Shown here: in pieces, positions 9,143-12,047 of the stretch | Numbering within the stretch: the stretch's first letter is position 1 | Layout: each line of letters begins with the position of its first letter | Translations under genes and position numbers: made by a program | From: Campylobacterales bacterium | GTDB lineage: Bacteria; Campylobacterota; Campylobacteria; Campylobacterales; Hydrogenimonadaceae | NCBI GenBank assembly: GCA_027067015.1 | Contig: JAMOMS010000137.1 | Coordinates: 1-12,047, forward strand | DNA: 12,047 nucleotides | Direction: 5' to 3' | Notes under the pieces: model-generated | What the model was told of the DNA's origin: nothing | Seen by the model: the letters and a program-made list of their open reading frames with translations, nothing else | Database searches by the model: none

Positions 9143-9685
9143 TTAGTGGCAGTAGAGATGGTAGATAAGTCGGGTTTTTGAGAAGTAGGGCGGGTAGGGC
9201 ATACGGACGGTAAAGGGCTGGATCTCTCCCGGCTTGATCTTTCTGGCGACCACAAACTCCTCTTCAATGGTGTTGGGGCGCTCTTTTTTGGCGTCTTTGG
9301 CCTTAAAGAAGTCCAGCCCTGAAGGTTTGTAGATCTGACTGCCGCTTAGTTTGTTTCCCTCGACAGGGTTGTTGATCATCTTGATGCTCAGTTTGCATCG
9401 GCCGATGGTAAACTTGCCCACATTCATGATTTTGCCTTTAAAGACAATCTCTTCGGTGCGTAAAATCCGGTGATTTTCAATGGAGAGCAGTTTGGCCTTT
9501 TTGGTGTATTTGTCCAAGACAAACATACTAAAAAGCGCGCCGGTAGATGTGACCAAAAAAGAGGCGAAGACCATAGACCAAAAGACGTTCTTACGCTTTT
9601 CGCGCTTTGAAATAAGCACCAGCAGAAGAAAGAGAATGATAAAAAAAGCCAACGTCAACCAATGAAGAACGGTCATATAGATCAT
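9143..9685 (-). CDS. Two-pass membrane protein of unknown function, second of a tandem pair (possibly DUF2393-like)
   Basis: A 180-residue protein with two predicted membrane helices (about 8-26 and 35-56) joined by a basic loop KREKRK (27-32). By the positive-inside rule both ends and the C-terminal domain should be periplasmic. The domain (about 57-180) looks like an all-beta fold: LLSIENHRILRTEEIVFKGK, then IMNVGKFTIGRCKLSIKM. It is a paralogue of the upstream neighbour, sharing LDKY-x-(K/R)K, LR, a G-x-(I/L)-x-N-x-GK block and two cysteines, here Cys97 and Cys179. The start is taken as ATG 9685, which overlaps the neighbour's TGA by 4 nt and has AAGGTG (9697-9692) 6 nt upstream; a GTG at 9694 in the same frame is less likely. 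A Campylobacterota DUF2393 assignment is from memory and unverified. Confidence 0.75.
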   Translation of the reverse strand: MIYMTVLHWLTLAFFIILFLLLVLISKREKRKNVFWSMVFASFLVTSTGALFSMFVLDKYTKKAKLLSIENHRILRTEEIVFKGKIMNVGKFTIGRCKLSIKMINNPVEGNKLSGSQIYKPSGLDFFKAKDAKKERPNTIEEEFVVARKIKPGEIQPFTVRMPYPPYFSKTRLIYHLYCH

Positions 9686-10206
9686 GGATAGCACCTTGCC
9701 GTAACGGAAATATTTAGATCATCTCTTCTTGGAAGAGGATCGACAAGAATTTTAAAGGGTTTAGTCTCCTCCTTGGCAAGGGGAAGTATGAGAGACTTGA
9801 TATAAACGGCGGTCGGCTTGAGCCAGGGGGACCATGTTTTAAGAAAGGCTTGGGGGCGATAGAGCACGATAACCAAATCGCAGGAGGTGTAATCGACTTT
9901 GCCGGCGTTGGTGAGGTTGCCTTCCAGTAGCAGTGCGTCGGAGTAGCGCAAAAAACGGCTCTCTTTCAAAGTGACCTCTGTTTTGCGAATGTAGCGATCC
10001 AACCCTATTTTGATGGCGGGCGGGCCGAAAAAGAGCAGAACGATACCCAGTAACAGCAGAAAATAGGAGAGGCCGCGACGGCGCACGAAAGCGCCCAGAA
10101 ACATCAGCAAAAAGGCTAAAAAAACCACCCACCCCAGGGCCATATAGTCATACTTGGTGAGGGAGTGGAAAGTGTAGTAGAGGTAGTGTTTGAGCAGTTC
10201 AGCCAT
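9682..10206 (-). CDS. Two-pass membrane protein of unknown function, first of a tandem pair (possibly DUF2393-like)
   Basis: A 174-residue protein with two predicted membrane helices (about 22-40 and 46-66) separated by VRRR (41-44), placing the C-terminal domain in the periplasm by the positive-inside rule. The domain begins [22 protein letters not shown] and continues [25 protein letters not shown], resembling small periplasmic beta-sandwich domains. Its only cysteines are Cys109 and Cys172; the downstream paralogue also has just two, at matching places. The ATG at 10206 overlaps the end of hisIE by 8 nt, and its TGA overlaps the next gene by 4 nt, so the three genes are translationally coupled. 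Histidine synthesis gives no obvious reason for a membrane protein here. No function is assigned. Confidence 0.75.
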
Positions 10207-10870
10207 CTTGCCTGCTGTTTTTCTCTTCGATGCCGCTCATGCCAAAACGCCGCGCAAGCTCCTGGCGGATGCGGTCAGGCGTGATCTCTTTTTTGCCAAG
10301 CGCCACCAGAACGTGGTAGGTCAGATCCGCTGTTTCGTAGACAATCTCTTCCTCGTCATTGTCCTTGATCGCGAAGCAGAGCTCGCCTGCCTCTTCGACA
10401 ATCTTTTTAAGCAGGCTGTTCTCTTTGCCCTGAAGCAGTTTGGCGGTGTAAGAGCTTTTGGGGTCGGCGTTTTTGCGTTCCAAAATGGTGTGATAGAGGG
10501 TGTCGATCACGCCGTAGGTCGCGGCGGTATCCACTTCGGGGGTACTGATTGTTTGGTGTGTCTGTAGGTCGGTAAAGAAGCAACTGCGCCGACCCGTGTG
10601 GCAGGCGACGCCCTCCTGATGGACCTTCAAAAGAAGCGTATCGCCGTCGCAATCTACCAGCATCTTCTCGATTTTTTGGACGTGGCCGCTGGATTCCCCC
10701 TTTTTCCAGAGTCGTTTGCGACTGCGGGAGTAGTAGTGGGCAAAACCGGTTTGGCGCGAAAGCTTAAACGCCTCTTCGTTCATGTAGGCCAGCATCAGCA
10801 CCTCCCCGCTTTGGGCGTCTTGCACCACGGCGGGGATCAAGGGGTTTTTTTGCCAGTCGATGTTTATCAT
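10199..10870 (-). CDS. hisIE: Bifunctional phosphoribosyl-AMP cyclohydrolase/phosphoribosyl-ATP pyrophosphatase
   Basis: Fusion enzyme for steps 2 and 3 of histidine biosynthesis: PR-ATP is hydrolysed to PR-AMP (HisE part), which is then ring-opened (HisI part). In the 223-residue protein the HisI domain covers about 1-110, with [27 protein letters not shown] and the metal site DCDGD (Asp73, Asp75, Asp77), plus [13 protein letters not shown] with Cys90 and Cys97. The HisE domain covers about 117-215, with [17 protein letters not shown] (Glu159, Glu160, Glu163) and [14 protein letters not shown] (Glu179, Asp182). The ATG at 10870 overlaps the NYN gene's TGA by 4 nt, and AAGGA (10881-10877) lies 6 nt upstream. 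No other his gene is in the window. Confidence 0.96.
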
Positions 10871-11577
10871 AAAACTTCCTTAGTCTGAAGGGTTGTTTGA
10901 AGCGATGGGGATCGAAGCAGGTCGATATGTTCGGATAGATCGGGACGAATATCTTGGCGCATGGGATCAAGAATAAAGGTAATGCCCTCTTTGCGGGCCA
11001 ATTTGGCAACGGGTACGAAATCACTGTCACCGGCGATTAAAATGATACGCCCAACCAGTTGTTTCAGACTTAACCAGGTTATATCCATTCCAATTTTCAT
11101 ATCGACCTGCTTTTGGGTCACATCAATGGTGAAATCTTCTTCTTGTAAGCTTTCGTAAGATACTTTTCCCTGAATGAACCGTTTGTAAAGCTTTTTATCT
11201 TTGAGCGTCCAAACGGCTTCGGTTTCATGTAAAGTGCCAAGTCGTAAGGCCGTCATAGGATGTTGACGAATAGATTGATGAAGGGCTTCACGGATTTGTG
11301 AAGTTTTGCTTTTTGAAAAATCGATGGCGTGACCGGTTTTTGGATGGTGCATCTTTTTTTTTAACGGTGGGGCGTCATAAACATAGATACGATAAAGCTC
11401 ATGTTTCTCTTTTTTGAAAGTGAGGTGGTTTTTTATATGGTTAAAGAGAATGTCGGATAAAAATATAGCCTCTTCATCTGCGGAGGTAAGTTGTGAAAGT
11501 TCATTGCGGCATAGCGTGCGTACCCGTTTGATAAAAAAACCGAGATCAACAAGAATGGCGGTTTTGGTAAAGCTCAA
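10867..11577 (-). CDS. NYN (DUF88/LabA-like) domain protein, predicted ribonuclease
   Basis: A 236-residue protein with the NYN fold (PIN-like RNase). The N-terminal strand is [13 protein letters not shown] with Asp11. The C-terminal core is [16 protein letters not shown] (Asp159, Asp165), then [23 protein letters not shown] with Asp184 and Asp186, followed by a strand FILDPM. Together these supply the acidic metal-binding residues of the family. The middle (about 25-140) is basic and variable. The start is TTG 11577: AGGAG (11588-11584) is 6 nt upstream and an in-frame stop (TAG, 11589-11587) lies just before it. Its stop overlaps the hisIE start by 4 nt. Base composition is markedly lower in GC (about 30-42% in the 60-base blocks I counted) than the GC-rich blocks of purF, suggesting later acquisition or relaxed selection. 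Its RNA target is unknown. Confidence 0.85.
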
Positions 11578-11580
11578 TAG

Positions 11581-11596
11581 TTGCTCCTAAAAGCAA
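11581..11596 (-). promoter_or_regulatory. Small hairpin enclosing the NYN ribosome binding site
   Basis: On the minus strand TTGCT (11596-11592) can pair with AGCAA (11585-11581) around a 6-nt loop. The AGGAG Shine-Dalgarno (11588-11584) sits partly in the loop and partly in the stem, so folding would reduce ribosome access. Only 3 nt separate the hairpin from the TTG start. The stem is short, so the effect could be modest. Confidence 0.4.
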
Positions 11597-11597
11597 A

Positions 11598-11655
11598 AAC
11601 CTCCGGGGTACTGCCCTGCGGTGCATCGCTTTCGCAGGGGATCGCCACGGAGGTT
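11598..11655 (-). terminator. 58-nt imperfect hairpin with U-rich tail: SPFH terminator and/or NYN leader RNA
   Basis: An outer 8-bp stem pairs AACCTCCG with CGGAGGTT (11598-11605 with 11648-11655). An inner 7-bp stem pairs CCCTGCG with CGCAGGG (11614-11620 with 11633-11639). An 8 by 8 internal loop between them may add three pairs, and the apical loop is 12 nt. On the minus strand the stem runs into TTTTT, GC, TTTT, as in an intrinsic terminator for the SPFH gene, whose stop is about 46 nt upstream. The same hairpin would also be the first structure of any transcript from the adjacent promoter, so it could attenuate NYN-hisIE expression or end a roughly 60-nt RNA. No known riboswitch class was recognised. 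Confidence 0.6.
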
Positions 11656-11664
11656 GATTGCCAA

Positions 11665-11694
11665 ATTATAATATAAACTCCTTACCCTTTTCAA
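11665..11694 (-). promoter_or_regulatory. Predicted sigma70 promoter for the NYN-hisIE operon
   Basis: On the minus strand TTGAAA (11694-11689) and TATAAT (11670-11665) are separated by 18 nt, the most complete promoter in the window. Transcription would start near 11658, within about 3 nt of the foot of the 58-nt hairpin. A TATAAT also reads on the plus strand at 11667-11672 but has no fitting -35 and no gene to drive. Confidence 0.65.
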
Positions 11695-11700
11695 GTGTCG

Positions 11701-12047
11701 CTACTGTTGCGTTGAGACCCGTTGTTTGGTTTTTTCTTTGGTGTCGATCCAGATGTTGGGGACCGCGCCGCCGGGGGTGAGGAAGATTTTGGCGTCTTTG
11801 TTGGTTTTGAGCGCTTCGTTAAACTGCCCCTGCACCTCGATCTGGCGCAGTTGCAGCAGTTCGGGTGTGAGCGAGTCGCTGATGAGCTTGTTGGCTTTGG
11901 CCTGGGCGTCGGCTTCGATGCGGATACGGTCCGCCTCACCCTGGGCCTGGATCTTTTTGGCTTCCGCCTGGCCGCGTGCCAGCGCCGCTTTCTTCTCGGC
12001 CTCCTGCTTGGCGCGAAGTACCTCATATTTCATCCGCTCGGCTTCCT
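11701..12047 (-). CDS. Prohibitin/HflC-like SPFH family protein, C-terminal part
   Basis: The frame is open to the right edge of the window and ends at TAG (11703-11701), so about 114 C-terminal residues are seen and the N-terminal membrane anchor and SPFH domain lie outside. The visible part begins EAERMKYEVLRAKQEAEKKA and continues as a long alanine-, glutamate- and lysine-rich heptad-like helix (ARGQAEAKKIQAQGEADRIR), the coiled coil used by prohibitins for ring assembly. Then come AKANKLISDSLTPELLQLRQIE and the tail AKIFLTPGGAVPNIWID, typical of the Campylobacterota prohibitin-like proteins (C. jejuni Cj0268c, H. pylori HP0248 as I recall). Related proteins form large membrane rings and often associate with FtsH-type proteases. 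The following hairpin at 11655-11598 may end its transcript. Confidence 0.9.
   Translation of the reverse strand, partial: EAERMKYEVLRAKQEAEKKAALARGQAEAKKIQAQGEADRIRIEADAQAKANKLISDSLTPELLQLRQIEVQGQFNEALKTNKDAKIFLTPGGAVPNIWIDTKEKTKQRVSTQQ

Follow-up and report, generated by a model that had tools for sequence, protein, structure and literature searches.

The window, a 12,047-nucleotide stretch of DNA from a Campylobacterales bacterium of the Hydrogenimonadaceae (GenBank assembly GCA_027067015.1, contig JAMOMS010000137.1), carries a promoter, a hairpin, and an NYN gene that together form one insert of ∼0.8 kb. Since similar pairs of RNA and NYN gene are found in unrelated bacteria, on their phages and plasmids, the two may form an RNA–nuclease module that has gone unrecognised and that possibly serves in phage–host conflict. 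The mobility of the unit, its spread through phages, and the permuted order of its RNA are not visible from the window sequence alone and emerged from the comparisons described here.

For the segment 11581–11700, the first-pass annotation had described a promoter, a two-stem hairpin, a UUUUU-GC-UUUU tail, and a TTG-started NYN gene, all of which were borne out (Table 1). The −35 box TTGAAA (11694–11689) and the −10 box TATAAT (11670–11665) lie on the minus strand with a spacer of 18 nt, and this promoter ranks first among the window's 16 promoter-like sites (6.9 in shuffled sequences). Transcription is predicted to start at A11658, ∼7 nt past the −10 box, and the hairpin begins 3 nt further on, as had been proposed. 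Between its two helices lie a 2-bp step and the internal loop CGATC/CAGTA, and the first two T of the U-tract belong to the outer helix. The folding energy of the 79-nt stretch is −33.0 kcal/mol, compared with a mean of −21.9 kcal/mol for shuffled sequences (z = −3.75). The hairpin is absent from the list of a simple terminator scan, which is limited to loops of 3–8 nt, and a competing anti-terminator fold was not seen in the foldings of the window. The suggested masking of the Shine–Dalgarno sequence is weak: the AGGAG bases show an unpaired probability of 0.37–0.65, and two fold computations disagree locally. The segment is present in a single copy in its own genome. At the DNA level it finds only short stretches outside this genome among 120 relatives (best 28 nt, 5.7e-4) and no match among plasmids and phages.

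Table 1. Features of the NYN unit and of its neighbors in the window
Feature	Position	Strand	Basis
sigma-70 type promoter TTGAAA-N18-TATAAT	11665..11694	-	read directly, 11/12 consensus letters
58-nt two-helix hairpin	11598..11655	-	folding
hairpin outer helix, 8 bp	11655-11648 with 11605-11598	-	folding
hairpin inner helix, 7 bp	11639-11633 with 11620-11614	-	folding
loop strand GG-CGATC (second strand in canonical leaders)	11640..11646	-	comparison with relatives' leaders
loop strand CAGTA-CCC (first strand in canonical leaders)	11606..11613	-	comparison with relatives' leaders
interrupted U-tract TTTTT-GC-TTTT, intrinsic terminator-like tail	11589..11599	-	read directly
AGGAG ribosome site of NYN	11584..11588	-	read directly, folding
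NYN gene, 236 aa, TTG start at 11577	10867..11577	-	ORF, PF01936, phrog_5783
hisIE, downstream neighbor	10199..10870	-	ORF, Pfam; directly behind SPFH in relatives
SPFH gene end, upstream neighbor	11701..12045	-	ORF; name from the first-pass annotation

The unit is flanked by the stop codon of SPFH (TAG, 11703–11701) and by hisIE, whose ATG overlaps the NYN stop codon. Pfam gives no match for the piece of SPFH in the window. Of 17 same-genus genomes, 14 yielded SPFH, and the remaining three are assemblies of 76–83% completeness; in all 14, SPFH is followed by hisIE after a gap of 2–43 nt that holds neither NYN nor the hairpin. Because these sites are empty, promoter, hairpin, and NYN are seen to be a single insertion. 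Among 13 more distant genomes, a close SPFH–hisIE order is kept in 10, another frame lies between the two genes in one, and for two the fetched stretch showed no hisIE. None of the 17 same-genus genomes holds a convincing match to the NYN protein; one hit, at E = 7.3e-4, is to part of a 419-aa frame. NYN–hisIE as a conserved pair, an earlier assumption, is therefore not supported, the NYN unit being an insertion. The empty sites also rule out a plain terminator of SPFH, in line with the original argument that the hairpin is more than that. Since hisIE now lies behind the leader, termination at the leader is probably incomplete. Directly behind hisIE stand two DUF2393 genes in tandem (window 9143–10206).

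NYN is the only Pfam match of the inserted protein (PF01936, 28.5 bits with a cut-off of 24.2), and by Pfam the protein does not belong to the ToxN/AbiQ family (PF13958). It matches phrog_5783 at E = 3.5e-79, a PHROG without assigned function. PADLOC gives no match for it and weak NYN matches for three relatives, and a sequence search of the PDB returned no relative (best E = 0.63). Residues invariant across 27 NYN relatives include Asp-11, Asp-159, Asp-184, and Asp-186, which we take to be the catalytic residues of a domain that is presumably an RNase.

The NYN family is mobile, with relatives distributed among plasmids, phages, and chromosomes. At E ≤1e-3, 3717 of 3899 candidate proteins match NYN, the best 120 of which were listed. 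Close relatives known from metagenome DNA (P0002–P0005) are 57–69% identical to the window protein. By tblastn, NYN is found in 166 of 72,556 plasmid records, 128 of them typed as conjugative (Campylobacter, 136 plasmids; Xanthomonas, 13; Aeromonas, 8; Helicobacter, 3; Thermus, 2; four others), and in 15 of 50,697 phage records. IMG/VR holds 160 confirmed NYN loci, of which the best 80 were taken further. Among 397 Campylobacterota genomes, 35 carry NYN at E ≤1e-15, counting the own genome and partial matches. In three fetched phage records NYN adjoins a LexA- or XRE-type regulator, and in one of these also an integrase. On a Thermus plasmid (L123) NYN has a helicase-related gene on one side and an N-6 DNA methylase on the other, and on two Campylobacter plasmids (L243 and L244) it lies behind an SNF2/DEAD helicase-type gene. 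In Moraxella phage Mcat4 (L125:2286–2473), matches to isrK and C4 antisense RNA are located shortly downstream of NYN.

We read the regions upstream of NYN at 124 loci. Strict parses caught few leaders at first: one gave 39 for the 124 loci, part of them erroneous, and another gave 15. From 67 candidate leaders, 22 were aligned (alignment A3), two of them with ends shifted by 1–3 nt. In A3, 96.4% of the cells are paired and double changes occur at all 14 pairs. The covariation of 0.762 compares with 0.301 in shuffled alignments (0 of 500) and with at most 0.213 when the alignment is slid; for the outer stem it is partly circular, because the segments were cut by this stem, whereas the inner pairs were not so used. 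Covariation of the structure, which the first-pass annotation had put forward as a check, is thus strongly positive for the leaders of NYN relatives; the window hairpin itself stands outside this alignment.

A covariance model (R1) built from the 22 leaders was run over 113 sources of NYN loci, near-copies excluded. At E ≤1 it finds 68 matches in 67 sources and none in the other 46. Every match lies on the NYN strand, and by position all but one (L199:2436) lie in front of NYN. In a scan of 36 records, R1 gives a single match in 33. Outside the training set, 45 of 91 sources match, 39 of them at 22 bits or more. A second alignment (A4) comprises 44 matches outside the training set from 44 sources, namely 34 of the 45 NYN sources with a match, one further NYN locus, and nine loci at which the RNA stands without NYN; 11 weak or near-copy sources were omitted, L203 has no match at E ≤0.01, and L199 has two. 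In A4, 95.3% of the cells are paired, double changes are again present at 14 of 14 pairs, and the covariation is 0.611 versus 0.228 in shuffled alignments (0 of 500), counts that lean toward structure because A4 was fitted to the model. The conserved letters form an internal loop, AGUA opposite GA with paired flanks, that is nearly invariant (first strand A in 39, G in 38, T in 43, and A in 44 of 44; opposite strand G in 37 and A in 42 of 44). A −10 box with five to six of six letters is found within 45 nt upstream of 34 of 67 leaders, compared with 18.6% at random places, and is thus not universal. In many phage copies the outer stem and U-tract resemble an intrinsic terminator. R1 finds no match in the 397 Campylobacterota genomes under stricter filters and none in E. 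coli and Proteus phage records or leaders.

Leader type follows the NYN clade. In a 108-protein NYN tree whose tips are marked as R1-type leader (66 rows) or other (42 rows), six changes suffice, compared with a mean of 33.4 after shuffling (0 of 500), a clustering that is helped by near-copies. This is co-inheritance and says nothing on binding. The earlier view that the hairpin belongs with NYN, as a structured leader or an sRNA of ∼60 nt, is supported.

In the window, the strands of the internal loop run in the opposite order, and the hairpin was therefore left out of the leader alignment. Its loop has GTGGCGATCCC first and GGGCAGTACCC second, whereas the order is GGCAGTAACCC...GTGGCGATCCC in the leader of L082 and GGGCAGTAACCC...GGGCAAACCCC in that of L080, the locus with the nearest NYN in the tree (SH-aLRT 90). 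With filters off, R1 scores the window hairpin at 6.3 bits (E = 5.6), which is no match in canonical order. The AGUA strand opposite the GA strand, the 2-bp step, the two flanking helices, and the position in front of NYN are nevertheless all present, with only the order swapped. Among the 124 NYN upstream regions, only the window and its copies show the permuted form under a strict grammar, which is also satisfied at six unrelated sites in 1.86 Mb of DNA (both strands). The letters alone are unspecific: in 2.39 Mb, 197 permuted and 420 canonical hits reach at least 8 bits. In the log-odds scan for the permuted form, of which the top 16 of the 197 hits were examined, the window ranks fourth behind three hits with shorter helices. 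The exact permuted pattern has two matches in the 397 Campylobacterota genomes, the window and one in G414 without NYN within the fetched 3 kb. The exact canonical pattern also has two, one in front of NYN (G099) and one without NYN within the fetched 2.3 kb (G334); backward controls give two matches per pattern. From these background counts, a chance occurrence is expected at ∼3–6e-4 per single 170-nt leader. Judged by its sequence, the window hairpin is likely a circular permutation of the canonical leader, a single case.

NYN is not the RNA's only setting, as pattern scans of IMG/VR gave 18 loci, 7 with NYN directly downstream and 11 without. NYN was not found in the virus records of these 11 solo loci, which may be fragments, and L257, L259, and L266 are near-copies among them. 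The highest score of all copies, 76.2 bits, belongs to a solo copy (L253:9256–9305) that overlaps, on the opposite strand, the start region of a truncated ToxN-like frame (PF13958, 1.6e-18). Another (L256) lies by a lysin-like gene, as judged by eye, and neither copy has a convincing same-strand gene directly behind it. Solo copies are located 0.2–0.4 kb before a terminase small subunit in L261 (Terminase_2, 8.5e-30) and, by eye, before terminase-small-subunit-like genes in L265 and L266. More broadly, those in L257, L259, L261, L265, L266, and L268 lie 0.1–0.4 kb before phage packaging or scaffold-like genes. A second R1-type RNA in L199 (2436–2485, 50.1 bits), a record that also has NYN with its leader, is placed before an integrase-like gene (by eye).

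Comparison with known RNAs gave one direct link. An Rfam scan, also proposed in the first-pass annotation, has no match for the window at gathering and, with E-values, only MAT2A_B at 2.8. The NYN leader of L171 scores 58.3 bits to RF03535 (TEG147), above the cut-off of 56.1, which is reached by only this one of 20 NYN loci scanned and not by the window; RF03535 has no match in the own genome, but 14 controls are equally silent, so that this search is uninformative. In an excerpt on S. aureus HG003, Teg147 (386294–386353, 60 nt) is listed as a bona fide sRNA, defined as having its own promoter and terminator and as not arising from premature termination (PMC5826253). It is reportedly expressed from a genomic island, according to part of another report (PMC3053349), and the excerpted Rfam 14 paper includes the family (PMC7779021). 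TEG147 thus resembles the NYN leaders in its length of ∼60 nt and in its own promoter and terminator, but its model is narrow, and the Teg147 excerpt makes no mention of NYN (PMC5826253).

The layout is shared with several known systems. In the excerpted description of AbiF/RCd22, a phage-borne promoter, ncRNA, and terminator precede an RNase-type toxin, and RCd22 is made mainly as a short transcript, the toxin by read-through (PMC12373285). The window module has the same layout, whereas AbiF is an Abi_2 protein instead of NYN and RCd22 holds two motif copies (same excerpt, PMC12373285); the abiF motif (RF03085) is not found at gathering in the window or in 20 NYN loci. Type III toxin–antitoxin systems (ToxIN), as outlined in the excerpts at hand, likewise place an RNA gene and terminator before an endoribonuclease on plasmids and phages, a layout found in the window and in many leaders. 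Their antitoxin RNAs are described there as repeat arrays rather than a single hairpin per NYN leader, and their toxin is ToxN, in contrast to the NYN fold family of the window. A phage pseudo-ToxI, an antitoxin-like RNA without toxin gene, was shown to protect, as stated in part of its report (PMC3475682); the solo NYN-leader RNAs are comparable, although known here by presence only. According to another excerpt, the prophage defence gene BstA has a short cognate self-immunity element, aba, at the start of its locus, which acts as DNA, unlike the structured RNA of the NYN leader (PMC8585504). svsR of an E. coli prophage was discarded as a counterpart; its place is the 3′ end of cI, and NYN does not occur in the text on it. 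Among the papers listed in searches of the open-licence PMC literature, none ties NYN to this RNA by title or start of abstract.

We propose, with about an even chance of being right, that the unit is a mobile RNA–RNase module in which the RNA terminates as an sRNA and keeps the NYN nuclease in check. Promoter, hairpin, and NYN would have been inserted between SPFH and hisIE as one module. Most transcripts would stop after the hairpin and yield an sRNA of ∼60–80 nt in excess, and read-through past the hairpin would provide the nuclease. NYN may then recognise the conserved internal loop (AGUA opposite GA), and the leader RNA may restrain it as an inhibitor RNA and/or a feedback attenuator, a restraint that we liken to type III antitoxin RNAs and to RCd22 of AbiF. 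If the loop alone is recognised, its strands could be connected in either order, which would make the window copy a natural circular permutation.

The main rival is a riboswitch-like attenuator, in which the loop binds a small ligand or host protein and sets termination before NYN and some phage genes. We regard it as rather unlikely. It would account for a conserved non-helical loop within a terminator-like stem, for the copy before the integrase-like gene in L199, and for the copies 0.2–0.4 kb before terminase-like genes, but no competing anti-terminator fold was seen in the window, L253 and L256 have no convincing same-strand gene directly behind their copies, and the Teg147 excerpt classes this RNA as not derived from premature termination (PMC5826253). 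Its classification there as an independent sRNA (PMC5826253), together with the solo copies in 11 virus records without a NYN found, would rather fit a trans-acting sRNA that has its own targets and merely shares the promoter region with NYN. Such an sRNA is improbable given that the leader class tracks the NYN tree and that the conserved letters, rather than forming a long open seed, occupy an internal loop flanked by pairs. There is little chance that the window hairpin is an accidental look-alike and that the real family consists of the relatives' canonical leaders only: R1 misses the hairpin, the case is single, and letters alone are unspecific, yet both loop strands, the 2-bp step, and the 7- and 8-bp helices fit, the low expectation per leader argues against coincidence, and the nearest NYN relatives have the same loop. 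A terminator of the SPFH transcript is hardly credible, for although stem and U-tract lie directly behind SPFH, they are lacking in every one of the 14 same-genus genomes in which SPFH was found, and the hairpin has its own promoter upstream.

AGUA opposite GAA forms the bulged-G fold of sarcin–ricin and loop E motifs, and PIN toxins cut the sarcin–ricin loop. The letters AGUA/GAA fit most leaders, and the window has GAU; a search of the open-licence PMC literature for bulged-G motif terms found nothing. It is conceivable, but doubtful, that the leader is a decoy of the nuclease target. The AGUA/GA loop would then copy the sarcin–ricin bulged-G fold, and NYN, being PIN-like, would cut such loops and stop translation in infected cells; the leader RNA would check NYN, and solo phage copies would serve as counter-defence. 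As only the loop would be read, a decoy RNA would be open to circular permutation, as in the window.

Should the RNA restrain NYN, as we prefer to think, it would belong to a widespread RNA–RNase module of phages and conjugative plasmids. Rfam catches NYN leaders only once in the 21 sequences scanned, through a narrow S. aureus family, and Teg147 would gain a testable role. The solo RNAs of phages that lack NYN would, like pseudo-ToxI, add to the examples of RNA mimicry directed against an RNase. With its permuted order, the window copy would offer a natural test of which RNA part is recognised.

Some Campylobacterota and enterobacterial NYN clades have other leader hairpins with other internal loops. 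Leader hairpins that differ in their internal loop are seen in the NYN clades of L148, L149, and L150, of L081 and L140–L147, and of L127, L128, and L204, for example CTGGCTC opposite CTAGCTC in L148–L150. In L181, L198, L203, L212, and L232, inverted repeats (GTACAG..CTGTAC, TACAAC..GTTGT) lie between the −10 region and the hairpin, just upstream of the latter, and may be an operator or an extra 5′ stem. Among 5426 complete E. coli genomes, 274 have some match to the leader and NYN of the L128-type lambdoid phage, and in 73 the match covers 80% of the query or more; 17 of 25 sampled E. coli rows with such a match, several of them O157:H7, keep only the first ∼465 of 973 bases.
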